A DNA stretch of 64,000 nt, taken from NCBI GenBank assembly GCA_944989445.1, contig CALYLW010000054.1:1860654-1924653 (forward strand), read 5' to 3'. The notes beneath the pieces are model-generated. The model had not been told where the DNA came from and searched no databases. It worked only from the letters and a program-made list of their open reading frames with translations. This stretch comes from Ampullaceana balthica. Taxonomy: Eukaryota > Mollusca > Gastropoda > Lymnaeidae. Below are positions 4,532 to 55,165 of this stretch, one piece after another. Made by a program: the position numbers and the translations under genes. How positions within the stretch are numbered: position 1 is the stretch's first letter; every line of letters begins with the position of its first letter.

Positions 4532-4929
4532 AATATCAACATGTCACGTCTGTAATATCTTATATCAACATGTCACGCCTCTAAGATCATATATCAACAT
4601 GTCACGTCTCTAACATCTTATATCAACATGTCACGTCTCTAAGATCTTATATCAACATGTCACGTCTCTAACATCTTATATCAACATGTCACCTCTCTAA
4701 CATCTTATATCAACATTTCACCTCTCTAACATCTTATATCAACATGTCACACCTCTAAGGTCTTATATCAACATGTCACCTCTCTAACATCTTATATCAA
4801 CATGTCACCTCTCTAACATCTTATATCAACATGTCACGCCTCTAATATCTTATTTCAACATGTCACCTCTCTAAGATCTTATATCAACATGTCACGCCTC
4901 TAATATCTTATATCAACATGTCACGCCTC

Positions 4930-7900: not shown

Positions 7901-8620
7901 CAACATGTCACGCCTCTAAGATCTTATATCAACATGTCACGCCTCTAATATCTTATATCAATATGTCAAGCCTCGGGGAGCTTAAACATATCAACATGTC
8001 ACGCCTCTAATATCTTATATCAACATGTCACGCCTCTAATATCTTATATCAACATGTCACGCCTCTAATAACTTATATCAACATGTCACGCCTCTAAGAT
8101 ATTATATCAACATGTCACCTCTCTAAGATCTTATATCAACATGTCACGCCTATAATATCTTATATCAACATGTCACGCCTCTAAGATATTATATCAACAT
8201 GTCACGTCTCTAAGATCTTATATCAACATGTCACGCCTATAATATCTTATATCAACATGTCATGCCTCTAAGAACTTATATCAATCAAAATGTCACGCCT
8301 CTAATATCTTATATCAACATGTCACGTCTCCAATATCTTATATCAACATGTCACGCCTCTAATATCTTATATCAACATGTCACGCCTCCAATATCTTATA
8401 TCAACATGTCACGCCTCCAATATCTTATATCAACATGCTACGCCTCTAAGATCTTTTATCAACATGTCACGCCTCTAATATCTTATATCAACATGTCACG
8501 CCTCCAATATCTTATATCAACATGTCACCTCTCTAATATCTTATATCAACATGTCACGTCTCCAATATCTTATATCAACATGTCACGCCTCCAATATCTT
8601 ATATCAACATGTCACGCCTC
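4930..8620. repeat. 3,691-bp higher-order block, copy 1
   Basis: Every rare variant checked recurs 3,691 bp later: the GGACACGCCT unit (5151 and 8842), the CAAGCCTCT unit (4951 and 8642), the TCAATCAAAATG insertion (8281 and 11972) and CTCGGGGAGCTTA (7971 and 11662). Alignment with copy 2 breaks upstream of about 4910 and downstream of about 8620. Confidence 0.9.
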
Positions 8621-11600
8621 TAAGATCTTATATCAACATGTCAAGCCTCTAATATCTTATATCAACATGTCACGTCTCTAATATCTTATATCAACATGTC
8701 ACGTCTCTAATATCTTATATCAACATGTCACGCCTCTAATATCTTATATCAACATGCTACGCCTCTAATATCTTATATCAACATGCTACGCCTCTAATAT
8801 CTTATATCAACATGTCACGCCTCTAAGATCTTATATCAACAGGACACGCCTCTAAGATCTTATATCAACATGACACGCCTCTAAGATCTTATACCAACAT
8901 GACACGCCTCTAAGATCTTATATCAACATGACACGCCTCTAAGATCTTATATCAACATGTCACGCCTATAATATCTTATATCAACATGTCACGCCTCTAA
9001 GATCTTATATCAACATGACACGCCTCTAAGATCTTATATCAACATGTCACGCCTATAATATCTTATATCAACATGTCACGCCTCTAATATATCATATCAA
9101 CATGTCACGCCTCTAATATATCATATCAACATGTCACGCCTCTAATATCTTATATCAACATGTCACGCCTCTAATATCTTATATCAACATGTCACGCCTC
9201 TAAGATCTTATATCAACATGTCACGTCTCTAATATATCATATCAACATGTCACGCCTCTAATATATCATATCAACATGTCAGGCCTCTAATATATCATAT
9301 CAACATGTCACGCCTCTAAGATCTTATATCAACATGTCACGCCTCTAATATCTTATATCAACATGTCACGCCTCTAAGGTCTTATACCAACATGACACGT
9401 CTCTAAGATCTTATATCAACATGTCACGCCTCTTAGATCTTATATCAACATTTCACGCCTCTAAGATCTTATATCAACATGTCACGCCTCTAAGGTCTTA
9501 TATCAACATGTCACGCCTCTAATATCTTATATCAACATGTCACGCCTCTAATATCTTATATCAACATGTCACGCCTCTAATATCTTATATCAACATGTCA
9601 CGCTTCTAATATATCATATCAACATGTCACGCCTCTAATATCTTATATCAACATGTCACACCTCTAATATCTCATATCAACATGTCACACCTCTAATATC
9701 TTATATCAACATGTCACGCCTCTAAGATCTTATATCAACATGTCACGCCTCTAATATATCATATCAACATGTCACGCCTCTAATATCTTATATCAACATG
9801 TCACGCCTATAATATCTTATATCAACATGTCACGCCTCTAATATCTTATATCAACATGTCACCTCTCTAAGATCTCATATCAACATGTCACACCTCTAAT
9901 ATCTTATATCAACATGTCACGCATCTAATATCTTATATCAACATGTCACGCCTCTAATATATCATATCAACATGTCACACCTCTAATATCTTATATCAAC
10001 ATGTCACGCCTCTAAGATCTTATATCAACATGTCACGCCTCTAATATATCATATCAACATGTCACACCTCTAATATCTTATATCAACATGTCACGCCTCT
10101 AAGATCTTATATCAACATGTCACGCCTCTAATATATCATATCAACATGTCGCGCCTCTAATATCTTATATCAACATGTCACGCATCTAATATCTTATATC
10201 AACATGTCACGCCTCTAATATATCATATCAACATGTCACGCCTCTAATATCTTATATCAACATGTCACGCCTCTAAGATATTATATCAACATGTCACGCC
10301 TCTAATATATCATATCAACATGTCACGCCTCTAATATCTTATATCAACATGTCACGCCTATAATATCTTATATCAACATGTCACGCCTCTAATATCTTAT
10401 ATCAACATGTCACGCCTCTAATATATCATATCAACATGCCACGCCTCTAATATCTTATATCAACATGTCAAGCCTCTAAGATATTATATCAACATGTCAC
10501 GCCTCTAATATCTTATATCAACATGCTACGCATCTAATACCTTATATCAACATGTCACGTCTCCAATGTCTTATATCAACATGTCACGTCTCTAAGATCT
10601 TATATCAACATGTCACGTCTCTAAGATCTTACATCAACATGTCACGTCTCTAAGATCTTATATCAACATGTCACGTCTCCAATGTCTTATATCAACATGT
10701 CACGTCTCTAAGATCTTATATCAACATGTCACGTCTCCAATGTCTTATATCAACATGTCACGTCTCTAAGATCTTATATCAACATGTCACGTCTCTAATA
10801 TCTTATATCAACATGTCACGTCTCCAATGTCTTATATCAACATGTCACGTCTCTAAGATCTTATATCAACATGTCACGCCTCTAAGATATTATATCAACA
10901 TGTCACGCCTCTAATATCTTATATCAACATGCTACGCCTCTAATATCTTATATCAACATGTCACGCCTCTAAGATCTTATATCAACATGTCACGTCTCTA
11001 ATATCTTATATCAACATGTCACGCCTCTAATATCTTATATCAACATGTCACGTCTCCAATGTCTTATATCAACATGTCAAGTCTCCAATGTCTTATATCA
11101 ACATGTCACTTCTCTAAGATCTTATATCAACATGCCACGTCTCCAATGTCTTATATCAACATGTCACGCCTCTAAGATCTTATATCAACATGTCACGTCT
11201 CTAAGATCTTATATCAACATGTCATGTCTCTAAGATCTTATATCAACATGTCACGCCTCTAATATATCATATCAACATGTCACGCCTCTAAGATCTTATA
11301 TCAACATGTCACGCCTCTAATATCTTATATCAACATGTCACCTCTCTAATATCTTATATCAACATGTCACGCCTCTAATATCTTATATCAACATGTCACC
11401 TCTCTAATATCTTATATCAACATGTCACGCCTCTAATATCTTATATCAACATGTCACGCCTCTAAGATCTTATATCAACATGTCACGCCTCTAAGATCTT
11501 ATATCAACATGTCACGCCTCTAAGATCTCATAACAACATGTCACGTCTCTAATGTCTTATATCAACATGTCACGTCTTTAAGATCTTATATCAACATGTC

Positions 11601-12311
11601 ACGCCTCTAAGATCTTATATCAACATGTCACGCCTCTAATATCTTATATCAATATGTCAAGCCTCGGGGAGCTTAAACATATCAACATGTCACGCCTCTA
11701 ATATCTTATATCAACATGTCACGCCTCTAATATCTTATATCAACATGTCACGCCTCTAATAACTTATATCAACATGTCACGCCTCTAAGATATTATATCA
11801 ACATGTCACCTCTCTAAGATCTTATATCAACATGTCACGCCTATAATATCTTATATCAACATGTCACGCCTCTAAGATATTATATCAACATGTCACGTCT
11901 CTAAGATCTTATATCAACATGTCACGCCTATAATATCTTATATCAACATGTCATGCCTCTAAGAACTTATATCAATCAAAATGTCACGCCTCTAATATCT
12001 TATATCAACATGTCACGTCTCCAATATCTTATATCAACATGTCACGCCTCTAATATCTTATATCAACATGTCACGCCTCCAATATCTTATATCAACATGT
12101 CACGCCTCCAATATCTTATATCAACATGCTACGCCTCTAAGATCTTTTATCAACATGTCACGCCTCTAATATCTTATATCAACATGTCACGCCTCCAATA
12201 TCTTATATCAACATGTCACCTCTCTAATATCTTATATCAACATGTCACGTCTCCAATATCTTATATCAACATGTCACGCCTCCAATATCTTATATCAACA
12301 TGTCACGCCTC
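8621..12311. repeat. 3,691-bp higher-order block, copy 2
   Basis: This is a direct tandem copy of 4930-8620. By eye it is nearly identical, including single-base variants. It could be a recent unequal-crossover duplication or an assembly duplication; the sequence alone cannot separate the two. Confidence 0.9.
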
Positions 12312-13534
12312 AAATATCTTATATCAACATGCTACGCCTCTAAGATCTTATATCAACATGTCACGCCTCTAATATCTTATATCAACATGTCACGCCTCCA
12401 ATATCTTATATCAACATGTCACCTCTCTAATATGTTATATCAACATGTCACGCCTCAAATATCTTATATCAACATGTCACCTCTCTAATATCTTATATCA
12501 ACATGTCACGCCTCAAATATCTTATATCAACATGTCACCTCTCTAATATCTTATATCAACATGTCACCTCTCTAATATCTTATATCAACATGTCACGTCT
12601 CCAATATCTTATATCAACATGTCACGCCTCCAATATCTTATATCAACATGCTACGCCTCTAAGATCTTATATCAACATGTCACGCCTCTAATATCTTATA
12701 TCAACATGTCACGCCTCCAATATCTTATATCAACATGTCACCTCTCTAATATCTTATATCAACATGTCACGCCTCAAATATCTTATATCAACATGTCACG
12801 TCTCCAATATCTTATATCAACATGTCACGCCTCCAATATCTTATATCAACATGTCACGCCTCTAATATCTTATATCAACATGTCACGCCTCTAATATCTT
12901 ATATCAACATGTCACGCCTCCAATATCTTATATCAACATGTCACGCCTCTAATATCTTATATCAACATGTCACGCCTCTAATATCTTATATCAACATGCT
13001 ACGCCTCTAATATCTTATATCAACATGTCACGCCTCTAATATCTTATATCAACATGTCACGCCTCCAATATCTTATATCAACATGTCACGCCTCCAATAT
13101 CTTATATCAACATGCTACGTCTCTAAGATCTTATATCAACATGTCACGCCTCTAATATCTTATATCAACATGTCACGCCTCCAATATCTTATATCAACAT
13201 GTCACCTCTCTAATATATCATATCAACATGTCACGCCTCTAATATCTTATATCAACATGTCACGCCTCGAGGAGCTTAAAAATATCAACATGTCACGCCT
13301 CTAATATCTTATATCAACATGTCACGCCTCTAATATCTTATATCAACATGTCACGCCTCTAATATCTTATATCAACATGTCACGCCTCGAGGAGCTTAAA
13401 AATATCAACATGTCACGCCTCTAATATCTTATATCATCATGTCACCTCTCTAAGATCTTATATCAACATTTCACGCCTCTAATATATCATATCAACATGT
13501 CACGCCTGTAATATATTATATCAACATGTCACGC

Positions 13535-13547
13535 CTCGAGGAGCTTA
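13535..13547. repeat. Array edge motif CTCGAGGAGCTTA
   Basis: The last unit of the 29-bp array reads CTCGAGGAGCTTA before unique DNA. The same motif occurs inside the array at 13266 and 13386, and as CTCGGGGAGCTTA at 7971 and 11662, replacing the usual CTCTAATATCTTATA. Confidence 0.75.
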
Positions 13548-15345: not shown

Positions 15346-16009
15346 ACTTACTCTGCTCAATTGAATGACGTCACTCAGTCCCCAAGCACCGGCGCAGAGA
15401 ACACCAGAGTCTCCACAGAACTACCTGAAGTGCCCGAAGCTACCTGTCTGAGCCCAGTCATGCATGCTGAATCTGGAACCAACAGGTCTGCCAGGCGCGC
15501 ACATCTCCTGAGACTCGCCATGGCCTCCATACCTGGATGGAACGGGGAACAACACATGGCTGGGACGGTGGACAGCGAAGGGGAAGGGGGGCGGTGGTCG
15601 GTTCCAGTGATTATGATTATTGATTCCAGTGAGTAAACGATTGGATGTCCTGTGGTCATGAGAGTCGGGTTTGGGGGGGGGGCACGGGGGCTGGGGGTGA
15701 GGATGGGGTGGGGGTAGGAAGATCGATAAGGTCAGAGTTGAGCTGAGCGCGGAGACAAAGATGCGGAGATCAGATCTAGAGGTTGGAGTGATGGGCCCTG
15801 CGTGGAGCTGTCACTGTTTGGTGTTGCAAAAGGCTTCACCGGTGCTGGCTTGCGTGGCGCTGCCACTGTCACGTATTGCAGGGGGGGGGGCTTTGTGGTA
15901 TGTCAATGTCATGAAGTGGATGGGTTTGCTTGTCACTGTAACATTTGTGAAGAGTCAAGCGCCGAGGGCTGGGTTCACTTCAGTGATGTTTGATTGGTTC
16001 AAGTGGCGG
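15346..16009. other. Unassigned GC-richer spacer
   Basis: Open frames exist on both strands (for example 15361-15636 plus, which has no ATG start), but none resembles a known family. Poly-G runs occur at 15671-15685 and 15881-15890. I see nothing I can name. Confidence 0.4.
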
Positions 16010-16478
16010 CGCTAGGACATGGGAATGATGGCCAATAGCGGAAGTGGTGATAGGACATGTCAATGATGGCAAATAGCGGAAGTGGTGATAGGACATGTCA
16101 ATGATGGCCAATAGCGGAAAGAGTGATATGACATGGGAATGATGGCCAATGGTGTCAGTGGAGCAAGGACATGTCAATGATGGACAATATCGTAAAGGGT
16201 GATAGGACATGTCAATGATGGCCAATGGCCGAAGTGGTGATATGACATGTCAATGATGGCCAATAGCGTAAGTGGCGCTACGACATGTCAATGATGAACA
16301 ATAGCGGAAGTGGTGCTAGGACTTGTCAATGATGGCCAATGTCGGATGTGGCGCTAGGACATTTCAATGATCACCAAAGGCGGAAGTGGCGCTAGGACAT
16401 GTCAATGATGTCCAATGGCGGAAGTGGCGCTAGGACATGTCAATGTTGGCCAATAGCGGAAGTGGGGCTAGGACATGG
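16010..16478. repeat. Minisatellite, about 38-bp unit, 12 copies
   Basis: The unit contains GGACATGTCAATGATGGCCA followed by ATAGCGGAAGTGGTGATA. Copies vary by single bases (GTGATA / GCGCTA) and one carries ATGGGAATG. Length is steady at 36-38 bp. Confidence 0.92.
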
Positions 16479-16737
16479 ATTTATTCATGATGATATCAGT
16501 CGTCTTTTGGGTTCGCGAATTCTTTTTATTTTCCTGTAATTTTACAGTTTGATAAGGAGACTAAAGGAGAGCAGAAACGTGGTGGAAGAATTTTTTTTTA
16601 AACAAATGTCTAGCCTGAAATTTAAGGAATACATTTATTACGAAACAAAAATGACCTGACATTTCTTCTTATCTCGAGACTAATTTTGTTAAAATGTGTA
16701 GCAGATGCAGATGAAGGAACATGACAGGAACGCTATA

Positions 16738-17005
16738 CACTGTAAAAAATGCAATGTTTTCTAACACGTTTATACCGTTATTTTACACTAAACTGCTGTA
16801 AATGAAGATTTTTTTACTGTTTTTAAAAAAAAACAGTAAGGTAATGTAATTTAAGTTCATTTACAATAAAATCCGGTATTAATTTATACTGTAAAAAATA
16901 CAATGTTTTTTAACACATTTATACTGTTATTTAACGCTAAATGGTTGTAAATGACTACTTTTCACTGTTTTCCCTTTTTAACAGTAATGGAGTGTTATCT
17001 ATGTT
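16738..17005 (+). mobile_element. Short nonautonomous repeat with CACTGTAAAAAAT end, partly duplicated
   Basis: ACTGTAAAAAAT followed by ACAATGTTTTYTAACAC starts at 16739 and again at 16888, giving two diverged tandem copies 149 bp apart. Each contains TACCGTTATTTTAC or a derivative and a small hairpin arm TTACTGTTTTT/AAAAACAGTAA. The reverse complement of the same end and of the 14-mer lies at 30787-30927. The superfamily is not determined. Confidence 0.6.
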
Positions 17006-17989
17006 CGTCTATAAATATTTTCAATACAGTATATAAATAAATGAATGCAAGACGTTTTATGGGTTACTAAACATTATATTATCCGATAGACATATAATTT
17101 TTGGAGGTTGTTGAGTTTACTGCCATGAAGGACAGTGAAAAATATTTTGGCCGGGTGCCCAAAGTGGCCTTTTTTCTTTTATATGAGCTATTTAAAAATA
17201 TTTTACGGACAGACAAACAGACAAAAAAGAACGAAAGTAAGTTATTAAAAAACGTGGTAAAGAGTGGTCGCTCGATAGTCGTAAGCTCAAGTCCTAGTAT
17301 TAGTATTAGCAGTCTAGTTTTGACTTAAATTTAATTCTATATTATTTTTTTTCTTTGGTCCTTACGAAATAATATGCCTTTATATTTATTAGTAATATAC
17401 TATTACTAATATCATGATTTTAAATATAATTACATCTTTCGTATTAAATAGTATAAATAATTTTTAATAAATAATAGATTTCCTTTAAAGTATGATTAGC
17501 CTTATAACGGTTTTAAATTAAACTTGCACTAATTAGGCCGGTGAACCTTAATACTTAATGTGTTTTCTTCTCTTATGTAAGCTAAAAAAAAATTATTTTA
17601 TTCACCCGATCGCAATGAAATTTTGGAAAGCTGTTGAGTAAGCCTACACTCTCGCAAAGTAAATGTGTATAGTATTTTATTTTAAAATATAAAAATGACT
17701 TCAAGTTTTTTTTGAATATCTTTTTCTTCTGCCATTTCTGCAATGCGTGACAGGTAATCTAGCTCAATTTAAAAATCAGTATTAATTATTTCACATGGGA
17801 ACAGACACATTTTTTTCCACAAATTATCGAGTTCTGACATAATAGTATTATATATAAACATTAGGCATGATTCCGACTAAAATCTATACTGTAGGGGTTT
17901 TAAATTTAAAATGTTGCAACGTTTTTGCCCGGGAACCCATAATGATTAATTAATGAAGTTTTGTTTTTCTTATTTAAGCTATTCAATAT
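17006..17989. other. AT-rich sequence, nothing recognised
   Basis: Runs of A/T with many stops in all frames. I see no transposon ends or RNA genes. Confidence 0.45.
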
Positions 17990-17997
17990 AAATATTT

Positions 17998-18712
17998 TAG
18001 GGCTTCGGATTAGTCGACCCATCACTTAAAAATTATTGGAAATTTAAAAAAAATATTTTTAAAAAATATATAAATTTGTTTTTTTAAAAATAATAAATTT
18101 AAAAAAAAATAGTGGCTGATAAATTACATGAACATTTTGGTTTTAAACTATTGACTGACGGGAATGTTCAAAATGTTGATAAATTTTGCCTACCATGGTT
18201 CTAACACTTCGCCTACTTATCAAACCAAATGAAAAGCCTATTGAGCTAATGGCAGTAATGGAGTCTGACTCAGAGACAGAAAATGACCACAGCTCTTCTG
18301 ATGAATTACTGCGTTACAAAATGGAGATGAAACTTCCCGAATCCATTGACACTCTACAATGGTGAAAACATCGATATCCGATAATGCAATTCCTTGCCAA
18401 GACCGGTTAGTGCATACCAGTTACTACAGTTCCAAGTGAAGGATTGTCCAGATCGGCTGGTTATATTGTCAATTAGACCCGCTCATCACTTGACCCAAAT
18501 AATGCCAACATACTTGTCTTTTTGCGTAGTTGGTGAAAAGATGACATATAAAGTAATAAAGGAGAAATTCCAGTGTTATTTAGATTTTCAACAAGAACGT
18601 TTAATGACATCATACATTTTAATTTTTTGGCTTTAATCGAAATTAACGATTAATTAATTGTTAATTTTTCAAAATATAACGATTAAATTTTAATTAATCG
18701 TTAACAGCCCTA
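17998..18712 (+). mobile_element. Decayed hAT transposon, internally deleted
   Basis: The left end reads TAGGGCTTCGGATTAG and the right end reads TTAACAGCCCTA, so the termini TAGGGCT/AGCCCTA are inverted. Flanking 8-mers are AAATATTT (17990-17997) and AGATATTT (18713-18720), 7 of 8 matching, as expected for an hAT 8-bp target duplication. At 715 bp it is far shorter than an autonomous hAT (typically 2.5-5 kb). The interior keeps only the C-terminal transposase region. Confidence 0.75.
18226..18531 (+). pseudogene. hAT transposase C-terminal dimerisation domain, broken
   Basis: Reading through three in-frame stops (TGA 18363, TAG 18408, TAG 18474), the frame gives an acidic linker (ESDSETENDHSSSDELL), then QW, HRYPIMQFLAK, VPSEGLSRSAGYIVN and SSLDPNNANILVFLRS. 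That order is the hallmark of the hAT family dimerisation domain: Trp, then YP..LA, then PSE(R).S.AG, then R..L.P.N....FL. The acidic linker resembles ZBED-type hAT transposases. The canonical Arg of SER is Gly here, and the stops make it non-functional. No N-terminal or catalytic region remains. Confidence 0.8.
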
Positions 18713-18720
18713 AGATATTT

Positions 18721-19793
18721 TTATCATTATTGTATTCTATCACAATAAAATTTTTGAATTGAAAGTAATTGAACACACTCCAGGTAAGATTTCAAGTTAG
18801 ATAATAATAATAATAAAATTTAATTTTAAATTATCTTTAAAAAATATTTAATTATCATTTATATTTTTAATTTTAAAAGCTTTAATATATATATTTTTTT
18901 ATATTGGAACAGTAAAACTAACAGACAATTTTTTACTCATTATCCATTCCTTATATTAAATTTGTTTTATTTAAACAAAAAATTGCAACATGTTTATAAT
19001 TTAAATGTTTATAAGTAAATATTAAATATTTACTAGAAAATAAATAAGTTTTCTTTAATATTATACTAAATTTGTTTATTATTGTTTTTTCAATTTATTT
19101 GAAGAATTGTTTCGTCGTATACATGTTTTGTTTTTTTTAAAATAGTTGTCTTAATGGGAAACTTCCGGCATCTTCAATCAATGGAATTACTTAAACTTTA
19201 GTTGATATTTCGTCAGTATATTAAGTTTAAATTTCGTCTTTGCGTTTGATTGTATAATTGAATTATTAAGAAACAGGTAATTATTTCATTTGAAATGGTT
19301 ATATATCTATTTTTATAGCTTCAGCCGTTTAAATTTAATTAAATTCGCCCCAATTCACAATTGATAGTATTCTCGGCATGACGGTAAGTGGTAAGCCGCC
19401 ATTCCGCCATTGTGTTAAAAAAAAGTTTGAGTCGAACTTTTTCAGGCTTATTATTCACTGCTTCTATTGTTTATTGCTCATAAGATTGTATGGCCGTATT
19501 TAGGTATTTAAATATGCCATAACATAATACTAATTTTAATCTTACAGTTGTAAGGATTGAAAACATTTTTAATGGTCGACGGCACATGGCATCATATGCT
19601 GCATATGCTATGGTCATGGTCATTTATTGTTTTTAATGATTCATTCTCAGCAGTCACTGAATAGTAAGTGTCAACTAAATGTGTCAATAGTTTTAATTGC
19701 ATTTTATATTTTACCAATAAAAATAGTAATAGTCATTAACTAGCATATTTTGCATTAAATTTTGAATAGCAGATTCAGATATTAAATAATATA
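18721..19793. other. AT-rich sequence, nothing firmly recognised
   Basis: No coding signal is seen. A possible splice-donor-like CATGACGGTAAGTGG lies at 19377-19391 (plus) in a locally GC-richer patch, but there is no supporting frame. Confidence 0.4.
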
Positions 19794-20391
19794 AGCCAGT
19801 GATTCACTCAGTGATGTAGCGGGTGTAAATATTTGGCAAGGCCTAAAGTTCAAGCCTAAAACTATACTATAGGGAAAGTGTAACAAGTACAAGTAATAGT
19901 AAATTAGCATGGATTACATAGCACACTAGGAAATGTAAGATTTTAAATATTTCCAAAGCACATGGCCCATGGCCATGCTTTAGTGAATAGTTAATGTCCA
20001 TTACATTTAAGTTGTCATTAGTATTATTAATGAAAATAATAGAAATTAATGACGGTCTACAGGCAGAATAGAAAAGTGCAAGAAATTTAAATATTAAATT
20101 TGTGTGGTGTGCAATATACCTTAAACTTATAGGCATAGGACTTAAAATATGTCCAAGGTCCAAAGCACATTCACATGGCTTGACACGGTCATGCTTTAGA
20201 CACTTTAGTCAATAGTTTGTATCTGTTACAATTAGATTGTCAATAGCTTCAATAGTATTATAGTGATCATAATATAATAATGGTCAATGTTCATTAATGC
20301 ATAGCAAATGTAAATAGGCATTAATTTTGAAATAGAAAATATAGAATAAGCTGGTGATGGAGTGGGCCTAAATATTTGGCAAGACCTATAG
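19794..20391. repeat. Degenerate interspersed repeat, left part split by the 4.1-kb element
   Basis: TAAATATTTGGCAAGGCCTA at about 19828 recurs as TAAATATTTGGCAAGACCTA at about 20370. AGATTTTAAATATTT plus CAAAGCACATGG at about 19938 recurs after the insertion at 24548-24574. The phrase CATGCTTTAG...AATAG also repeats about 210 bp apart (19975, 20189). The family is unknown. Confidence 0.55.
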
Positions 20392-21458
20392 TAGGTACTT
20401 TGACAAAAAATTCAAAATTGTCTGATCTCAATCAAACCTATACCATTAGAAAGAGCGTGCAAATTGCAATTCAGAACTACCAAGATTTTTTTTCTACATC
20501 AATTGGTTAAAAAGTTATGGCATTTTTAGTGCCTGAGTTTTTCCTTATATAATTGTTCCGAAATCTGTGACCGCGAATCGAAACTTTTGTCACTAAAAAT
20601 GTCATAACTTTGTAACCGTTTGAGATAAACCCGTCAAATTTTCAGCATAGTTGCATGATTCATTTTGCTTTAAGAATAACTAATTGCAAGAGCAAAATAG
20701 CAATGACTCATGCATTAAGGTGACATTGTTTTAGCAGAAGGTAAGTAATTTCTTTTTAAAAAATTGAAACATGCATCAATTTAAAGCAATAAAAGTCAAA
20801 CTTTCTAACATATATCTTTCAGGGATTATTCCCTCATTTATTTAATGATATAATTTAATAATTATAATGATACTGCTTGCTGTTTATTTGTTAGTGAACC
20901 AATTGAAATCTGAAAAGAAAGAAGAAAAAAAAGGTTCATCGACGAGGAAAGCCAATAATAAAAATTTAGAAAATTATTAAATTAATTAAAGTTATATATA
21001 TATATATATATAATTATAAAACTAAATGATCTTTCAGTTATACATATGTTATAAATACTTCAAAATATTGTAATAATTTGTTAAAATTGCTTTGCCGAAG
21101 TTACTGAAGGTTTGCATGGCACTAGTGACACACACACATAAGTATCTCACTCCAAATTTGTATTTGCGAAATTTTTTGTGCTCAAGATGTCCTGAGGATA
21201 AAATTAATATAGAAATAACATTACAATTACAATACAAGATATACAAATATGCTATATTTAAAAAAAAAGATATGTAATAAGTAATATGTTAATGTTTAAA
21301 TAATTAGGGCAACCTAAATGTAAGTAAATTAAATTTGAACCTATCAATAACTAACCGATGCTTATAAATGATCAAATGGTGTATCAAGTAGTCCTCCTCC
21401 AATGTAGAAGTTGTCTTCAGAATGTCGTCCAGTTTTTCTTTGATCCAATAGTGGTGCC

Positions 21459-21565
21459 CTGCGATGGAATCATTTCTAAAGCTGCTATCTTAAATTTAGC
21501 TTTATTTTTGAAAATCATATTTTAATTGAAGAACAAAATGATTCAAAAACAGTTACAGTACTTAC
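21459..21565 (-). other. Candidate 107-bp intron, copy 2
   Basis: On the minus strand the donor is CAACTG|GTAAGT and the acceptor is CATCGCAG|GGCACC. Donor-to-donor and acceptor-to-acceptor distances to copy 1 are both 676 bp. Flanking exon-like sequence is diverged, yet both splice sites are kept. Confidence 0.55.
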
Positions 21566-22134
21566 CAGTTGTTGTCAGTGTAGATGAATTATTCCTCATT
21601 GTAATCCAATATAGAAATAACAATAGTCCTATTTTTAAATACAAGTCCAATGCAGAAAAAAACAGTAATCCAAGGAAGCGTCAAGTTTGATGTAGAAATA
21701 TTTCAACTGATCCAAATGATCCAAATGAGTATAGTCCGATTTAGAAATAACAAGTGTGTATTGTAGATAAGTGAGTTGTCCAAAATAGCCTAGTGAATTG
21801 TGGAAGTATTTTAAAAGTTTTCCAAAGAGCTTTTGTAATGTCCAGTGTGAAGGTTGTCCTTTAGTGTCCAGTTTTGTATTTGCAAAATGATCACTGCTCA
21901 AGATGTCCTGAAAAATAAATTTATATAGAAATAAATTTACACTAAAAATGTTTAAATGTTTTTTTATCTTTAAGGCTTAAGGTTGAATAACTAGCGTTAC
22001 ATAACTTTATGCAAATTAAATTAAAACCTATAAACTGACCAATGTTCATAAATTATCAAATGGTATAGTAATCCTCCCATGTAGAAGTAGTGGTCAGAAA
22101 GTCCTCCTTTTATGTTTCATCCAGTTGTGATACC

Positions 22135-22241
22135 CTGCAATGGATATTGGATATATTTATAAAACGTCTATATACATTTTTTTAACCCAAATTTTTTTAA
22201 TAGAACAAACAAAACTAATCAAGAATTGTGAAAGCACTTAC
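22135..22241 (-). other. Candidate 107-bp intron, copy 1
   Basis: On the minus strand the donor is CCACTG|GTAAGT and the acceptor is CATTGCAG|GGTATC. A second copy with the same length lies exactly 676 bp away at 21459-21565. Confidence 0.55.
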
Positions 22242-22672
22242 CAGTGGTCCTCAGTGTAGATGTAGATAAATTATTCCTCAAAGTAGAAAAATAAGCAATC
22301 CAATTTCGAAATAACAAATCGTCCCTTTTATTTTATAGATACTTCTCCAAATGCAGAAAATAGCTATTTCATCATAAGTAGCGACAAGTCCAATGTAGAG
22401 TTGTCCAAACATGTCTTTTGAATTAATAAAGTGGTTAAGTAGATTTCCGATGTGCAGGCTCCAAGTCCAGGAAGAAAATTGCCTTTCAGGATAAATTTGA
22501 TTTTCTAGAAAAGCAAATGCATCTACATTAGAACTAATTTTTTAATGACTTTTATATTATTATGGCATCTTTTTTTAAAAATTTTCTTTACAAATCATGT
22601 GCTGTCAATATGAAACGTTATTTTTCTAAAATATTTGCTTACATGTGCATGTTCACAGCATTAAATGTATAC

Positions 22673-22710
22673 CTCAGTTTTGCTTCTTTCAGGCAAATAT
22701 TTAAACATTC
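22673..22710 (-). other. Candidate 38-bp micro-exon (minus)
   Basis: Minus strand reads ATTTATTTCAG|GAATG and ends AACTGAG|GTATAC. Both junctions fit consensus, and the piece lies downstream of the exon at 22851-23131 in the same element. Confidence 0.35.
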
Positions 22711-22850
22711 CTGAAATAAATGTAAATAATGTTTAAAATCTACAAATTATTTTTAAAGTTTAATTACAGATTGTTTATAAAAATTATTAATCAATTTACT
22801 GTAGTGTATATAAGAATAAATTTGAAGAAAATATTAATCTATAAACTTAC

Positions 22851-23131
22851 ATTATCATGATGGCTAGGTGAAAATAACTTTTTTATGTAGACAACACATC
22901 ATACGATGTTACGATGTGATGATCAACAAAGCCATTAGTGAATGGTGTTCCTTCATCAGATGTAAAAGTGTTAACATATGACATATAATCTTGAGCAGTA
23001 TTTTCTTTCGGATGCGCTGAGGAATTCACTACACTGGGCCTGGGTTGGGAGGCATCCGAAGAAGTAGTAGAAACAGATGCAGCAACAGAAGTGCCAGGTG
23101 CTTCAATAAGTGGTGGAGACATGGCTGTTAC
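22851..23131 (-). CDS. Spliced exon with 79-codon frame, unknown product
   Basis: On the minus strand the exon is bounded by an acceptor (poly-T then TAG|GTAACAGCC, AG at 23132-23133) and a donor (GATAAT|GTAAGT, GT at 22849-22850). It holds an ATG at 23122-23120 and a 79-residue frame ending at 22883. The product starts MSPPLIEAPGTSVAASVSTT and is rich in Ser, Thr and Pro, with no domain I recognise. The frame stops inside the exon, 31 bases before the donor, so the protein would be short and later exons would be untranslated. It may be the remaining N-terminus of a once longer protein. The splice sites are stronger evidence than the frame itself. Confidence 0.4.
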
Positions 23132-24348
23132 CTAAAAAAAATAATATTACTAAGCAGAAAATTAGTACAAGTATATGCAAAAATTGACAATAAATACAAA
23201 AAGTATGTGTGATAAAAAATAGTTTAAGTCAAATCTCTAGTCAATTATAATGAAATAAATCAATAAAGATAAGTTTAAACTTTGAATAAATAATGAAATT
23301 AATTATATAATATAAATTATTTAAATTGATGGTCTGTAACTGTAGACTAGAGCAAGAAGTAGAATAATCTCTGAAAAGAAAAAAAGAAAGAGAAAAATGA
23401 AATAACGTATTTATAATTATAACTATGATCAATGCTATGTAATTTACCACAATTGAATTGTTCTTTAATTGGTCATTATTACTATATCTAATTTATATTA
23501 ATTTATTAACTAGTTATAATATTTAATAGTAAAGAATTAGTATTAGTAAGTTTAAGAATAATATTAATAAGAGTCAGCTAGTCAGAGTTAGAGAAAGAAT
23601 GGGCATAGGCATAAGTAAAAGTAAATAAATACTTTTGGTGGAGTAAGAATATAGAACAAACAAACTTTACAACAAAAAAAATGGGGGTCAAGGTGAATAT
23701 TAAAACTGTCCATAATAATAACATTATTAAAATAAAATTAAATGTATTCATTTTATTTTTGTAATACACAAACGTAACCAATGACAGTTAATAATGATAA
23801 TGACATTAACCGATATACCGCTTATGAAATGTGTCTGCAAATCTATATTTATAATTTTAAAATGGCGCTGTTTGTGTATTTTCATTTATTAGTTATTGTG
23901 TTCCTAAAATCCCACCCAAAATCGATAGATTGCATTAAAAAACAATCGATTTAAATTGGATTCCTAAAGCATTCTTAAAGCGTTAATAGTAAGCCCCTTT
24001 AAGTCATTAAGAAACAACAACGCAGATCACTTCCGGGTCATGCCTCCCAGCTCGGGAAAAAAACACACAAAGGATACCTTCTTTAGAGGAATGATTTAAA
24101 CAAAATGCCACCATCGGATTGACTTCATTTTTTAAATATAGCTATTTAATTGGATAATAATCGCAAACATTTAATAACATGCGCGAACTTCATTATAGTT
24201 TTTAAGAAAAAAATGTTTTTACTACTTACCAGTGACAAGGTCAAGTTTTTCTGCACCAAGCGCTAAGAATCTGATTATGAAAGCGCGATCAGAATAGGAG
24301 CCGTCCTCGAATTAACAAAAATGGCACTTGAAAACCTATTGTTTCCAT

Positions 24349-24357
24349 CTTATATAG
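24349..24357 (-). promoter_or_regulatory. Candidate TATA box for the minus-strand transcript
   Basis: Minus strand reads CTATATAAG, 120 bp inside the right inverted end and about 110 bp before the first good donor. Upstream on the minus strand is a GC-rich stretch (GGCGCGCGCCGACC type) in an otherwise AT-rich region, as in a compact transposon promoter. Confidence 0.45.
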
Positions 24358-24852
24358 ACAATGGAAACAAGATTACCGATTGACTCTGTGACGTACCGGA
24401 ATTGACCGGGGCGATTGAAAATAGCCGATTTCCGGGCCCCGAAAATGGTCGGCGCGCGCAGGTTGTTGAAGTACCTACCTATAGGTAGAGGGGTCTAGTC
24501 CGAGGCATGTTTAATTTGCACGATGTGCAATGCACCATAGGCCTATAAGATTTTAAATATTTACAAAGCACATGGCGGTACTTAAGAGAAAAATTTCTGC
24601 CATTATAGTTTCAAAAATATTCCCAATAGACTTTTAAAAATAGTTAAGTATTGGCTTTTGAGTTGACAGAGAGGGTGAGAAGTGGCCTAACATATTTTAG
24701 CTATAATAGAACGCACTGTGTTCATAAGCCCATAATTATCTCAGTATTCATTTACAGTTGATAAAAGAAGACCACTAGATAGAATTAATATTGTAGTAAG
24801 GTATTGGTAGACTAAGATATACAAATATTCAAGTTTTTTTTAATGTCCATAG

Positions 24853-25163
24853 CAATTCTTTTTACAAACAATTTGTAAATGGTGTGTTTGAAGATTTAGT
24901 GGATGGCAAATTGTATACATCAAATCCCTTTTTTAATAATGAAAATGTTTTTTGGCTAATTCTTTACCAAGATTCTTGTGAAGTTGTAAATCCGATGAGG
25001 ATCAGGTAAAAAGAAGCATAAGATGCTTTGGAATATTCATGAGATCTTTAATAAATCTGTAAGTCCTAATCACAGTCCAAGCATCCATTTTAATATAGTT
25101 TATGCCTTAACATTTAAACTACTACATATGCCACGAGTTTATTACATTATTTTGCTGCTTTAA
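24853..25163 (+). pseudogene. Decayed exon of an uncharacterised multicopy animal protein family
   Basis: After an acceptor-like TTTAATGTCCATAG, the plus frame reads FYKQFVNGVFEDLVDGKLY, then NPFFNNENVFWLILYQDSCE and VVNPMRI. A shift of one base near 25006 continues it as GKKKHKMLWNIHEIFNKSVS and SIHFNIVYALTFKLLHMP. From memory, the pattern F.DGK.....P.F......L.LYYD..EV.NPLG.....HK.......L.NI.P..RS.....I..L...K typifies a family seen in many copies in fish, cnidarian and mollusc genomes, with no assigned biochemical function and probably spread on transposons. The TAA at 25007 and the frameshift make this copy non-functional unless the shift is a sequencing error. The fold-back element begins just after it. 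Confidence 0.6.
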
Positions 25164-25170
25164 GTTTACG

Positions 25171-26400
25171 AAGTGATTATTCGCACGGTTTTGGCCGTGC
25201 GGATAATGCTGATATTATTTGCACGGTTTTGGCCGTGCGGATAATGCTGGTATTATCCGCACGGGTCGTCTGCGTCTTACTTATAGTGGCTGGTCACAAT
25301 GAAAAAAAAACGCGCCCAGTGTAGACAAAATAATGGCCGATATCACTCGATTTAGGCTAAAATGTGTAATTTATATGCTAACACATATTACAATTTCATG
25401 ATTGGTGAAATTTTAAAGTACCATTGCCATAAAAATTTATTAGTGTGCATTTAATGATAGTTACTTATAAGTTTTAAATAACAAATATTTTCATCAGCTT
25501 CTCCAGTTGAGTGGTTAATCTAGCTTAGTTCAATTTATCATAATGGTGCTGGTAAGCGGATCGAATCCTAGGACAGTCTAACTTTTTTTTTAAAGGGGGG
25601 GGGTGTGTGGGTGGGTTACAACCACAGTGAGGATGTTTGCAAATGCACAAGCAGGCGCTTTCCCGGAAACATTTGATTTTTTCCCCCATCCATGCCTGTC
25701 TTATCTATTCTGTTACTAACAGTCATTGTTACAGACTCTCACTTTAAAATTTTTATGCTATACTGGCTATACCATTGTATCGTCTTTCGTTTTTTCATGC
25801 TTTAAATTAACTTAATGGATTTATGTTGACCACAGGTAAAATGCTAGTTTTGGGGAGAATAATAATTATTCTTTTTCATTACAGAGTCTCCAATTAAATA
25901 TTATGTATGAAAGTTAATAAAAAGTTACTTCAAAATTATACAGAATAAAAATACAAAGTTGATTGCACTGGAACAGTTAATAAAAGTATAGTTTTATATC
26001 AGCTAAATCCGCAGCATTACTAATTAATTAATTAATGATTAATCATTAACAAACGATATGCAGGTCCGCTCAGATTATTGCTAAAATGGATACAAATATA
26101 AGATTCCAGACACTTGAAAGACGGTTAAAATAACAATTGAATTTGTTCGACATTATTCTCACGGTCAAAATTTTAAAATTTAAAGTGAGAGTCAGTAACA
26201 GTGACTGTTAGTATTATTTGTTAATTTTTATTATCATTTTTATATGCATTACCCAAGGCCTTTAGATAACGTTTGGCATCATTCTCACGGTCAAAAACCG
26301 TGCGGCAGTGCGAGTAACGCTAGGCATTATCCGCACGGTTAACCGTGCGGATAAAGTTGGGCATTATTTGCACTGCCAAAACCGTGCGAATAACGCTTAA
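25171..26400. mobile_element. Fold-back-like element with GCACGG hairpin ends
   Basis: The left end contains ATTATTCGCACGGTTTTGGC, then CGTGCGGATAATGC, and repeats the theme three times (25175-25264). The right end is its inverse (CCAAAACCGTGCGAATAACG at 26377-26396), again with several internal repeats. A second inverted pair lies inside: CTCTCACTTTAAAATTTT (about 25736) against AAATTTAAAGTGAGAG (about 26176). CTTTAAGTTTAYG occurs just outside both ends (25159 and 26422) and may be a long target duplication. The left half holds a tRNA-like SINE. Confidence 0.65.
25501..25580 (+). mobile_element. tRNA-like SINE head or tRNA pseudogene
   Basis: An A-box-like AGTTGAGTGGTTAATC is followed about 48 bp later by a B-box-like GGATCGAATCC (25558-25568) and then poly-T. 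The arms do not fold into a full acceptor stem, so it is a pseudogene or SINE promoter rather than a working tRNA. Confidence 0.45.
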
Positions 26401-27391
26401 GTTTAATAAAGCTTAATAATACTTTAAGTTTATGTAAGTTAGGACTCTTCCTGACATCTATGACATATTTTCAAAAAAACTTGGTTTCAGGTAAAGATCA
26501 CATGAAACAGGGAGTCTAGGTTAAACTAACTGAACAATACAAGTCTTGGCAAATTATATGCTTTAACATTACCACTACCGATATGTAAGTATTAATACAT
26601 TTTATATTAAACAGTAATGAAAGTATGAGTCTAGAAAAAGTTACGAGAATGTATCATTTGTCAACTTTAAAGTCAGTGTATGGCATATAAATATTTATAT
26701 GCAGAATATTTTTCATGTCTTTTAATATTATTATACAGAATTAAGTAGATGTAGTCTAATTATATTATAAACTGTTTACATTTTCTTAATTTTTAATAGG
26801 TATGTAGTTATGTTACACATGTATAAATTCTGTAACAAAAGGAAAATTGTTATTTGTAATCATTTAGTTAATTATTTTTACTTGAAATTTCAGGTTCTGT
26901 CTTTTACAATAACAAAAGGGGAGGTCTTTGATTACAGAATGACCATTGCATGCAATAAAAAGATGGATAACCACTTTAAAGTCTGTCATGAAAGGTGTTA
27001 AATTAGGATGTTTTCAAATTGAATGTTTTGTTGATTTTAAGTTATATTATAAATAAGTATCAGTCTTAACAAAATTTATCAGTTTATAAATCATGGTAAT
27101 ATTTTTTGGTTCTAATGCCAGTTGAGATATTTAAACCATGTGTACATTTAAACGTTAGTTAGAGATTTAACATTTATTTTTTATTATTAAGGTGTTGGTT
27201 AAGATTATTGTCACCCTAATTTTGTCAAGACTAGGTAATATATAATTTGTATTTTGGCTAAGACTAAAATCAATCAGAGCATTTAGATCTCTTACTAGCT
27301 GTGCAGTTATCAGATTTGTTTTAATCATAAAGTTCTTTTTTTTTCACTTTCCATTTCAGATAATAGAGAAATAAGGTGGTCTTTGATTACA
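26401..27391 (+). other. Exon-like fragments upstream of the small spliced gene
   Basis: Two places share GGTCTTTGATTACAGA (26923 and 27379), about 456 bp apart. Each can be read as coding (VFDYRMTIACNKK at 26918; VFDYRLVKAYNVTVDIVP at 27374) or as a splice acceptor ending in TTACAG. They look like duplicated exon edges. No longer conserved frame links them. Confidence 0.3.
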
Positions 27392-27467
27392 GATTAGTCA
27401 AGGCGTACAATGTCACTGTGGATATAGTACCAAGATAAAGTGTTCAATATTCGGACTTCATATTGAA

Positions 27468-30050
27468 ATGGTAAGTTGATTTTATTTTGAAAGCTTATTT
27501 TTGTGATTAATAATAATGTCATAATTACACTTATTTAACATGTGAGATTGTATTCTGATTTTACTCAAGAGTGCTACAATATTTTTGTTTTAAATCATAA
27601 GTAAAGTAAGTGGAAATAGCATCTTGTTTGTTAATTTAGATTTTGCTTACATATCGCCACCTTAGAATAACTGAAGGTTCTAATTCTATATGGCCCTACA
27701 TAATATCAAATTTTCAAAGGCCAATATCTTGGTTTGAACAAAAGTTTACATAGAACCTTGTTATTCTAAGGTTAATATGTTTCATAGTTAAATTTTATTT
27801 TTATGTATTATTCTTTGTCCTACATATCAGTAAAATTGAGGTTTGAGTAATTTCTTTATATTAAAATATAAAATATTCTATTATCCCATCTCAATGACTC
27901 TACTTAATTTTATAGGGTTACAAGTTTTATTGAAAGTTAAGTGAATATCTTCAAGTCAAAAAGTTATTTGGGAGTGTATTACAGATACCCTTTGACTTTT
28001 GTTGTACCATGATTTGATTTGTACTATTTCTTATTTTTTTAAAGCCTGCCAGCACTGTGGAGGAAATTGAAGAAAAATCTTTGCCCCCTACACCTCATCT
28101 AATTCTAAGGGGTATGTGAAATATTTAGTGAATTTAAACACTGGTTTCCTTTATTTTTTTAAATATAGCTCACGTTTTCACATTAATTTTTTAAAATAAA
28201 ACGTGAAAAGTTGCTTTCATTTGAATACCCTTGTCTTAGGGTAAGACTTACATGGTTTTAATGTTTTGCACTAGTAAATTGTTATTTTGTTTCTAGGTAA
28301 CAGTCTCATGGGAGTTGAGGACTGGATGCTTTCCATTGATGGCAAAGTAGTCATCCATGCTGATGAGAATGATTTTCTAAAGGCTGTTGGTTGCCTCTGC
28401 GGTGCCTATTACACATTCAACATTAAATATGATACAGAAGCAATCTCAACTTTGGAGTTTTTGCAAAGGTTAGAAATTTATGTTTTCCTATGTGATTAAA
28501 CGTATTTGTAAATTTCATTTCAGAAGTATTTACTCTAATTTTCTTTTTTTCCACAATTAATTTTCCCTCTATGAACAAGTTTTTAACTATCTGGTATGCG
28601 TCCCTCTCCGCCTTATGGTTGCAGATGCTAAGATTAACTAGTAAAGGCTCTTTCCAGATTATATAGATAATTTTAACGTTTAATGCCCAAAAGCGAGGTA
28701 ATGCGCGCCTTGTCTCTAATCCCAAAGCGCGGTAATGCGCGCCTCGATGGCACTCTCTTTAGTAATGAGATCATAAAAAAAAGAAATTCTTCATTTAGTG
28801 AGAGAAGCTTTAGTCGACTTCCGGAAATGGCGACAGTTGCCTTTGCTAGTGTTATCGCTCCATTCGCGAAGTTGTGCATGTTTTTTTTTGTTGTTTTTTT
28901 TTAATTTTTAAAAAATTTTCTTTTTTTTTGAAGATGTGATTTTGCTATGCTTTTTTGTAAATATAATAGTACTAAACTACAGATAAAATTAGTATTAAAC
29001 TCAAGTCGGTCTTTTGGATACATAAAATAACCATTCTTATCCTAAAAGATGAAGTCAGTATGATAATGATAATATAAATTCATTTTCCGTAATTTTTTTA
29101 AATTGCATAACAAGTTGATCACAATTAAAGGGAAATCCTTACGGGACTGAGGCGGAAGTTTACCAAAAACCTTATGGGGCTTTAAACGTTAATAAACTAA
29201 ATTTTGTGTTGTCTTTTTTCTACTTTGTCTTCTGCATCGTTTTCTTCTAGTCATGTTATTATTGTTATACTTCTTTGTTGAAATCTTAGCCAAGGAGGTT
29301 TAGTATTCATTAACCCATCTATGTGTGCCCTTTTATTCAGCCAACAAGAAACTTATAGCAAAGCTGTTTTTTGAGAAGCAGGTTTCTCTTGGAAGCTGAA
29401 ATAACTAACTTTTTTCACCAATTATTGAAAAATATTTTTTAAAATTTTGTTATTACTTTTAATTTATCAAATTTTTATTGCCCATTTTAAGAAAACCTTC
29501 AATTTTTTTTTAATTAAAAAAAATAAATAAAAAATTTAAAAAAAAATAAAAATTTAAAAAAATATATAATAAAAAATTTTAAATTAAAAAAAAATGTAAA
29601 AAAAAATTTAAATTTAAATTAAATTTAAAATTTTTTTAAATTAAAATTTTTTTTTAAAATGAAGTTATATAAAAAAAATTTAAACATTTTTTTAAATTAT
29701 GAAATGGTTTTAATTCTTTTATTTTTTTTATTTACACATTTTTATGACGACTGGTTTTGTATTCAACCTTGGATGCTTTGAAATGCTCTGGTTGAACATG
29801 TAATTTTCAAAAACACTAACTGCTATCAATGTATTGTGTGTTTTTACATTTTAAGCTTTCCTTTAAATGTATTTTCAGTTACAGAATTCAATAAACCTGT
29901 TATTCCTTTCTTTTTCAATTAGGTGGATGCAAGATAAAAGAAAATGGCAGCAGCACACCCAGTAAAGGAAAAGCAACAGAAGAAGGCGTTAGCAGAAAAG
30001 TTGCAAGCGTAATAAGAGATCTCTCAGACTTTGAATGTACAGAAAGATGA
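27468..30050 (+). CDS. Small spliced gene model, 113 codons, uncharacterised family
   Basis: Exons are inferred at 27468-27470 (ATG followed directly by GTAAGT), 28045-28111, 28297-28468 and 29951-30050. All junctions are GT-AG and phase is kept throughout. The product has an acidic start (PASTVEEIEEKSLPPTPHLI), then NSLMGVEDWMLSIDGKVVIH, ADENDFLKAVGCLCGAYYTF, NIKYDTEAISTLEFLQ, and ends VSRKVASVIRDLSDFECTER. The ADxxDF.xAxxxLCGxYYxFNxxY....xxTLEFxQ pattern and the RDL.DFE tail recall uncharacterised, often transposon-linked animal proteins; I cannot name a function. Upstream of the ATG the frame stays open to 27381 (ISQGVQCHCGYSTKIKCSIF), so the true start may lie earlier and this may be the 3' end of a longer gene. 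The last acceptor is a CAGCAG tandem site; using the earlier TTAG at 29921 would instead give an early stop. A TTAA-flanked MITE sits in the last intron. Confidence 0.55.
28673..29192. mobile_element. TTAA-flanked MITE (piggyBac-like), 520 bp
   Basis: The left end is TTAACGTTTAATGCCC; the reverse complement of the right end is TTAACGTTTAAAGCCCC, 15 of 16 matching. TTAA at both edges fits the piggyBac target-site preference. Just inside the left end, AAAGCGNGGTAATGCGCGCC occurs twice in tandem. No transposase is present. It lies inside the last intron of the small gene model. Confidence 0.65.
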
Positions 30051-30081
30051 ATGTTGATACTGTTATGACCTGAATGGACTT

Positions 30082-30927: not shown

Positions 30928-31428
30928 AGCCGGGAACACGATCCAACTCATCAGCATAAAACCAAGCGGCGTGACCAGGAAATGTAAGAATGGGAAAACT
31001 ATAGACCAGAATGCTGAAACCGTGGTTGGGTGCATTGGCGTGGTTGGTGTGGGTGGGGAGGGGGTTGGGTTGCATGACGCGTGTTAAAGGAGATAGAGGA
31101 GTGCGAGTCCTCTGTCATTGCGTAACTGCGTCATTGCATCATTGAAATTTAAAATGTTCTCACGGGCAGACCGCCCTGGCCTTCATTTGACAGTGTCCGT
31201 GGAGAATAAAAGGTTAGAAAACCATTTTTATGCTCAGGGCAATAGGCCGAAATATAAACGACGGAAAACGTGTGGACAGATGGACAAACGAATCGAATGA
31301 CACGCTGGTGCATAATGCGACACCTTATCACAAATATCAACACCTTGTTACAAATATCAAGACCTTGGTACAAATCATGGCACCTTGTAATATAGTTCGA
31401 CATCACAGCACATATAGCGACTCCTTGG

Positions 31429-32245
31429 TACACAGAATGATATCATGGTACACAGAACGATATCTTGGTACACAGAACGATATCTTGGTACACAGAACGA
31501 TATCTTGGTACACAGAACGATATCTTGGTACACAGAATGATATCTTGGTACACAGAATGATATCATGGTACACAGAACGATATCTTGGTACACAGAACGA
31601 TATCTTGGTACATAGAACGATATCTTGGTACACAGAATGATATCTTGGTACACAGAACGATATCTTGGTACACAGTAGGATATCTTGGTACACAGAACGA
31701 TATCTTGGTACACAGAACGATATCTTGGTATACAGGACGATATCTTGGTACACAGAACGATATCTTGGTACACAGAACGATATCTTGGTACACGGAATGA
31801 TATCTTGGTACACAGAACGATATCTTGGTACACAGAACGATATCTTGGTACACAGAAGGATATCTTGGTACACAGAACGATATCTTGGTACACAGAACGA
31901 TATCTTGGTACACAGAACGATATCTTGGTACACAGGACGATATCTTGGTACACAGAATGATATCTTGGTACACAGGACGATATCTTGGTACACAGAACGA
32001 TACCTTGGTACACAGAATGATATCTTGGTACACAGAATGATATCTTGGTACACAGAAGGATATCTTGGTACACAGAACGATATCTTGGTACACAGAACGA
32101 TATTTTGGTACACAGAAGGATATCTTGGTACACAGAACGATATCTTGGTACACAGAACGATATCTTGGTACACAGAAGGATATCTTGGTACACAGAACGA
32201 TATCTTGGTACACAGGACGATATTTTGGTACACAGAATGATACCC
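31429..32245. repeat. Minisatellite, 20-bp unit, about 40 copies
   Basis: The unit is TATCTTGGTACACAGAACGA, with variants GAATGA, GAAGGA and GGACGA. Unit length is constant at 20 bp. About 120 bp of diverged relatives (CACCTTGTTACAAATATCAA type) lead in from 31310. Long open frames on both strands (60-bp, 20-residue period) are a by-product of the repeat. Confidence 0.97.
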
Positions 32246-45354: not shown

Positions 45355-45437
45355 TCGTAGTGAAATTCGTAGTGTACTGGTTATCACGTCCGCCTCATAC
45401 GTCGATGGTCCTGGGTTCAAGCCCCAGCAAAAACATT
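45355..45437 (+). mobile_element. tRNA-like SINE head or tRNA pseudogene (Val-like, CAT anticodon position)
   Basis: TAGTGTACTGGTTATCACG (A-box) and CTGGGTTCAAGCCCCAG (T-arm with B-box GGTTCAAGCCC) are clear. The anticodon loop reads CTCATAC, but the anticodon stem has a mismatch and no acceptor stem pairs, so it is not a functional tRNA. Confidence 0.5.
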
Positions 45438-55135: not shown

Positions 55136-55165
55136 AAAGGGACGCGAATTAACCATTCTGTAAGC

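Follow-up and report, generated by a model that had tools for sequence, protein, structure and literature searches.

The window analysed here, a 64,000-nucleotide stretch of the gastropod Ampullaceana balthica (GenBank assembly GCA_944989445.1, contig CALYLW010000054.1, positions 1,860,654 to 1,924,653 of the forward strand), contains at positions 20392-24477 an element of 4,086 bp with 15-bp terminal inverted repeats (TIRs), complementary at 13/15 positions and flanked by a 7-bp target site duplication. Comparison with other copies in the host assembly (1.097 Gb) makes it very probable that this element is a transposon family member lacking ~3.4 kb of the transposase gene, and that its movement depended in trans on a cut-and-paste transposase of the kind encoded by C554, a longer member of the family.

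A transposon family with 7-bp target site duplications

The preliminary description of this DNA had proposed a TIR element with a perfect 7-bp duplication that divides an older repeat, and both proposals held. The ends and the flanking CCTATAG were verified, and homology with other copies has its borders at the same points. An older local repeat at 19811-19966 is matched in two halves on either side of the element: 20354-20391 matches 19811-19848 at 84%, right up to the left border of the element, and 24546-24576 matches 19936-19966 at 97%. Judging from this match, the element is inserted into the older repeat, the two flanks having formerly been contiguous. An inverted 15-bp pair with a 7-bp repeat is, taken alone, modest evidence in AT-rich DNA: Markov shuffling of the surrounding 14.6 kb, repeated 60 times, yielded 10 chance pairs of this kind, and the real neighbourhood contained two further ones, both AT-rich. 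The 15-mer end was not enriched genome-wide either (3,738 occurrences versus 4,315 for the reversed control). Because the pattern alone was not rare and the 15-mer not enriched, we searched for further copies. The shuffles and the lack of enrichment would both suit a chance meeting of unrelated inverted words with a coincidental 7-bp repeat, an explanation refuted by the copies found, in which homology ends exactly at the TIRs and the duplications differ from site to site; we give it practically no weight.

One of the first eight loci with an exact 15-mer match proved to be a copy 97% identical to the window element, and genome searches with the right and left ends returned at least 40 and at least 45 matches, respectively. 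Twenty two-ended copies, spanning 2.4 to 8.2 kb (C889 and C76 being more diverged), were testable at both ends; C562, whose right end reads N, C2479, C3298 and C839, whose right ends are incomplete, and left-end-only matches were left out. A perfect 7-bp duplication flanked 16 of the 20, with differing sequences: CCTATAG (window), GCAAAGG (C7), CTGTAAG and CTTATAG (both C23), TAGTTAT (C56, contig strand), CTAACAC (C136), ATTACTA (C1309), TTGTAGG (C221), GCATAAC (C442), TATATAT (C561), TACTGTA (C297), GCATTGG (C375), TCTAATG (C554), ACTAGAA (C858), TTTTAGG (C1571) and CTAACGT (C889). The right end reads TTGTTGAAGTACCTA in the window copy and TTGTCGAAGTACCTA in the majority of the others. A duplication of 8 bp was rejected, none of the 11 pairs examined showing that length. 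Since homology among the copies stops at the ends and the duplications differ between sites, the reality of the element is settled, and the check that the preliminary description had suggested, a search for other copies with the same ends and 7-bp repeats, came out in its favour. The family has both the TIRs and the duplication of constant length by which cut-and-paste DNA transposons are recognised.

Five remoter relatives (1.45-3.2 kb), with second ends resembling TAGGTACTTCGATAC, also had perfect 7-bp duplications (TATTTAC, GCCTAGC, GATAATT, ATAGTAT and TATTAGT). They lend weaker support because the duplication was itself part of their search: of 20 loci read, three (L009, L020 and L021) were full copies and the other 17 were screened with the 7-bp duplication as a search criterion, five of them showing a second end with a perfect duplication and twelve not. 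At the resulting 21 perfect sites, 20 had A or T as the central base, G never occurred at position 2 nor C at position 6 (both strands counted), and T at position 3 and A at position 5 were somewhat favoured, suggesting a weak palindromic target preference, N-H-T-W-A-D-N, in counts made without a background control. Over the right-hand 2 kb, the window element and seven other copies of the 4,086-bp type are 98.3-99.9% identical, and two copies of a 3,717-bp type are identical to each other, which suggests recent activity.

Four right-end-only matches (L051-L054) were considered as an autonomous partner and rejected, as they share only 221-222 bp; within 8 kb of them, no matching duplication accompanied by a second end was found. 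In these and eight further matches, the similarity (78-92% identity) is confined to ~190-280 bp at the extremity of the right end, and they may belong to another family sharing this end, or be solo ends. Nested within the copy on C56 (L049) is a 1.25-kb insertion whose ends are CAGGCCTGCCAACC / GGTTGGCAGGCCTG and which has CATTAA on both sides; it is a further TIR element, its duplication measuring 6 bp.

A longer member encoding a putative transposase

The 3,717-bp copies contain a 170-residue exon that, used as protein query, matched 53 places, one of them in an 8,240-bp member, C554:251057-259296, with its left end at 251057 and its right end at 259296. The window element is covered by four parts of C554, namely its left arm (82-96% identity), a 647-bp segment (253691-254337, 99%), the stub of a second exon and the promoter arm (96%). 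The transposase exon of C554 is open for 553 codons and ends with CTCAG/GTAAGC; exon 3 starts after CTTTCTTCAG (CTTCAG) and encodes YKMK, like a Hydra protein described below, and a C-terminal exon at 255935-256195 matches residues 328-414 of that protein. The end of the 553-codon exon, the start of exon 3 and the C-terminal exon all lie within the stretch absent from the window copy. C554, longer than the window copy but sharing its ends, encodes, then, a protein that its motifs and setting identify as a probable transposase. Of the 4,154 bp by which the two elements differ (8,240 minus 4,086), ~3.4 kb is the missing gene part; the remaining ~740 bp is consistent with additional sequence of the duplicated unit in C554, where matches overlap.

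In the protein encoded by the C554 exon, an N-terminal region is followed by a coiled-coil-like stretch and then by a C-terminal region, in which the motifs WDATTK, LTDRAAVN and ELNCxVHP occur. A protein search, in which the best 7,988 candidates were scored, gave three relatives: P0001 (52% identity), P0002 (46% over 61% of the exon) and P0003 (23%). P0002, the uncharacterised protein LOC136079999 of Hydra vulgaris, is the sole named relative found; proteins with similar motifs appear to exist in other animals under 'uncharacterized' names. Two D, C490 and H493 (P0001 numbering) are invariant in the alignment of the four sequences. PMC3706591 reports a CxxH or DxxH following the second D in hAT, Kolobok, P, MuDR and Dada elements, with duplications of 4-10 bp. 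In its probable mechanism, the present family resembles the cut-and-paste DDE elements of this larger group.

Profile searches gave no name to this protein. Pfam returned for the C554 exon five matches below their cut-offs (best E 0.056), no transposase among them, NCBIfam five matches far below theirs (the best being SMC, E 2.3e-4, over the coiled-coil stretch), and PDB sequence searches nothing below E 0.16. Neither the exon-2 stub nor the 170-residue exon gave an informative result in protein searches, and Pfam on the six frames of the window element (stops as X) gave one chance match (E 0.09). Scans of viral and prokaryote contigs with the transposase alignment produced no confirmed match, and a scan of viral contigs for the left end produced none. 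The host genome itself contains at least 83 matches to P0001, fragments included, and 16 of these are near full length without a stop (frames of at least 535 codons); four of the 16, on C491, C98, C160 and C2156, are 91% identical to P0001. These 16 were recognised by their protein frames.

Internal deletion and probable mobilisation in trans

The ~3.4 kb of transposase gene is missing at a single junction. This junction in the window, GATGATCAACAAAGCC, has CAA in common with its left (GATGATCAAAGC) and right (ACACAACAAAGCC) partners in C554, a 3-bp microhomology. At ten loci including the window, the exon-2 stub, whose last residue is 66 or 67, adjoins the 647-bp segment (at C136 the two are 11 bp apart), and six of these ten have perfect duplications of their own (window, C221, C442, C56, C1309 and C136). 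The junction appears most simply shared by descent, which implies that the deleted form moved after the deletion; this form, which lacks the transposase core, cannot have made a complete transposase, and that it was mobilised in trans follows as a tight inference from the sequences. The 3,717-bp type has a different deletion in the same transposase gene. We rejected the idea that the 647-bp segment was foreign DNA swapped into the 4,086-bp type, as it is present in C554, and for the same reason its loss from the 3,717-bp type is more likely.

A C554-like transposase would bind the TAGGTACTT ends, cut the element out and join it to a weakly palindromic target (~N-H-T-W-A-D-N) via staggered cuts 7 bp apart, the repair of which would produce the 7-bp duplication. 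The internal deletion would have arisen by incomplete gap repair following excision, a likely origin given the microhomology at the junction. The promoter, exon 1 and exon-2 stub on the minus strand would be what remains of the transposase gene at its 5' side, with just 67 residues encoded by the stub.

Remnants of the transposase gene on the minus strand

The preliminary description had seen several minus-strand GT-AG junctions and no visible transposase, and had suggested, as one possibility, that the cargo was a spliced RNA, for the most part non-coding. Part of the splice prediction stands: the minus strand has four donors above 10 bits (24229, 22241 and 21565, each CTG/GTAAGT, plus 24396) versus 0.61 expected, and 2 of 200 shuffles reached four. 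Those at 22241 and 21565 are not independent because each belongs to a copy of the same duplicated unit. The donors proposed at 22851 and 22673 fell below the cut of 8 bits, and the acceptor before 23131 below that of 9 bits; all splicing here is predicted. The other two suggestions were not supported. The minus strand retains the initial 67 transposase codons, from 23122, where the ATG lies, down to 22922, within an exon 2 that starts at 23131, and exons 1 and 2 correspond to the 5' part of the transposase gene.

It is very improbable that the element serves to carry a spliced non-coding RNA with a function. The strong minus-strand donors would agree with such a role, as would a duplicated exon-like unit retained in the 4,086-bp, 3,717-bp and 8,240-bp forms; against it, the promoter and exons 1 and 2 are parts of a transposase gene, and the exon proposed to end at 22851 spans the deletion junction, its donor lying past it. 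Moreover, the duplicated units are 67% alike, and neither a protein match nor a conserved frame was found in those of the left arm. The two units of the window copy are ~500 bp each and exon-like, and C554 seems to hold more of them. This part of the left arm may correspond to the 3' untranslated region of the transposase gene.

Several observations weigh against our interpretation of the window element as a deleted copy moved in trans. These exon-like units are not explained by it, and the 15-mer end, as said, is not enriched in the genome. Four of the 20 testable copies depart from a perfect duplication: C1525 and C76 have none, that of C628 has one mismatch (6/7), and in C382 the left copy of CACATGC is displaced by 5 bp. 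On the protein side, a third catalytic acid was not identified, and structure models of the three relatives (two AlphaFold jobs) were too poor for a fold test, with predicted local distance difference test (pLDDT) values of 43 and 44. Finally, C554 is a close relative of the window copy, as the 96% identity of the promoter arms indicates, and not necessarily its direct parent.

Table 1 Features of the 4,086-bp element and its insertion site (positions in the window).
Feature	Positions	Strand	Basis or remark
Target DNA, first half of the older split repeat	20354-20391	+	Second half at 24546-24576
Left target site duplication CCTATAG	20385-20391	none	Sequence, copy comparison
Left TIR TAGGTACTTTGACAA	20392-20406	+	Identical end at other copies
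Subterminal inverted repeat, arm 1	20499-20531	+	88% complementary to 20591-20623
Subterminal inverted repeat, arm 2	20591-20623	-	Partner of 20499-20531
Duplicated exon/intron-like unit, copy 1 (predicted donor CTG/GTAAGT at 21565)	21151-21659	-	67% identical to 21867-22360
Duplicated exon/intron-like unit, copy 2 (predicted donor CTG/GTAAGT at 22241)	21867-22360	-	Repeat comparison
647-bp segment	22277-22923	none	In the 4,086-bp type and C554, absent from the 3,717-bp type
Exon-2 frame, 79 codons	22886-23122	-	67 codons of transposase N-terminus, last 12 past the deletion
Internal deletion junction, CAA shared	22923-22925	none	L076 and L068 versus window
Predicted intron 1	23132-24229	-	Donor 24229, acceptor before 23131; conserved in C554
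Exon 1, predicted, untranslated (approximate 5' boundary)	24230-24330	-	Sequence, inference
TATA-like box TATATAA	24350-24356	-	Sequence; upstream of exon 1
Right TIR TTGTTGAAGTACCTA	24463-24477	-	Sequence, copy comparison
Right target site duplication CCTATAG	24478-24484	none	Sequence, copy comparison

Other features of the window

The GC content is 27-35% at 16000-30000 versus 34-48% elsewhere in the window. Downstream of the element, at 26890-30080 (plus strand), lie exons of a host-like gene (e.g., 28300-28472), two upstream exon-like stretches of which contain a repeated 'GGTCTTTGATTACAGA' segment; Pfam gave no match on the one exon tested. A relic of a hAT transposase occupies 53247-56205 on the minus strand (Pfam Dimer_Tnp_hAT in 53247-53639, E 2.6e-10, with further open frames upstream). 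The window also contains unusually large minisatellites (4533-13537, 695-3177, 39062-41710, 31424-32242 and others), with units of 29 bp repeated ~310 times, 30 bp 83 times, 26 bp 102 times and 20 bp 41 times. A tRNA-like Rfam match at 45366-45431 (plus strand, 33.2 bits), not called by ARAGORN, is possibly the head of a short interspersed element.

Placement among known superfamilies

In the literature consulted, we found no described family matching that of the window, a statement that does not extend to absence from Repbase. The suggestion of an undescribed element or a rare superfamily in the preliminary description agrees with this, insofar as no described superfamily matched. We tentatively propose, with somewhat less than even confidence, an undescribed animal DDE superfamily with a coiled-coil N-terminal half, the aspartates of WDATTK and TDRxxVN, a CxxH, a 7-bp duplication and TAGGTACTT ends, occurring in Hydra and multiplied here into several families with numerous open genes, from which deletion derivatives mobilised in trans would arise. 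PMC3706591 presents the length of the duplication as diagnostic of transposon superfamilies. A length of 7 bp is reported for few superfamilies in the literature consulted, and it is found here in a family that, with its numerous transposase matches, 16 of them near full length without a stop, is yet unnamed by Pfam and NCBIfam. If it were a superfamily of its own, unnamed proteins like that of Hydra would gain an identity, 4-kb elements 'without transposase' would become classifiable by their ends, and the intact copies would provide a testable transposase of the hAT/P/Dada group.

The family could also be a very divergent hAT lineage instead of a separate one, which we consider rather unlikely. 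The ends of hAT elements begin with YAR and their transposases have a C..H motif like CxxHxLxL, which the sequence here resembles. The CxxH after the second aspartate, with C490 and H493 invariant in all four sequences, speaks in the same direction, and hAT entries annotated with 7-bp duplications seem to exist in Repbase, as implied by a search example in PMC4455052. Against this affiliation, no hAT family of Pfam matched the 550-residue exon up to E 10 or its three relatives up to E 1, whereas the hAT relic of the same window is detected by Pfam, and the duplication measures 7 bp where ~8 bp is usual for hAT, according to PMC3706591. Pfam found the C-terminal dimerisation region of hAT neither in the Hydra protein nor in the C554 exon, in a search that did not cover complete C-termini. 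Because of the 7-bp duplication and the missing profile match, we do not claim hAT membership. A P-superfamily lineage, Galileo-like, that lost its THAP domain appears improbable, even if the C/DxxH motif described for that superfamily is common to both and long helices, read as coiled coil, precede the motif region. Neither a THAP nor a P-type transposase family was found by Pfam at the same E limits (C554 exon up to 10, P0001-P0003 up to 1), and the target motif is unlike GTANTAC. Since these profiles are missing, P membership is not claimed, in spite of a 7-bp duplication at a weakly palindromic target, the latter counted without background control.

Among known systems, Galileo of Drosophila (P superfamily), as portrayed in PMC4168063, resembles the present family in its 7-bp, sometimes 8-bp, duplications, its palindromic targets and its many non-autonomous copies; it differs by its long, internally repeated TIRs and its THAP-domain transposase, in contrast to the 15-bp TIRs and the lack of any THAP or P match here. 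Dada elements, according to PMC3706591 and PMC8869645, share duplications of 6-7 bp, the D, D, C/DxxH motif and internally deleted derivatives that keep both ends. However, they have no TIRs and target small RNA genes, whereas the present family has TIRs and 21 varied target sites, for which reason Dada membership is not claimed; Rfam recognised no RNA gene at the insertion studied, its sole match in the window being the tRNA-like one. Another likeness is that of LOC136079999 of Hydra vulgaris, compared at the protein level, which shares with the C554 exon not only 46% identity over 61% of its length but also the motifs and the position where exon 3 continues.

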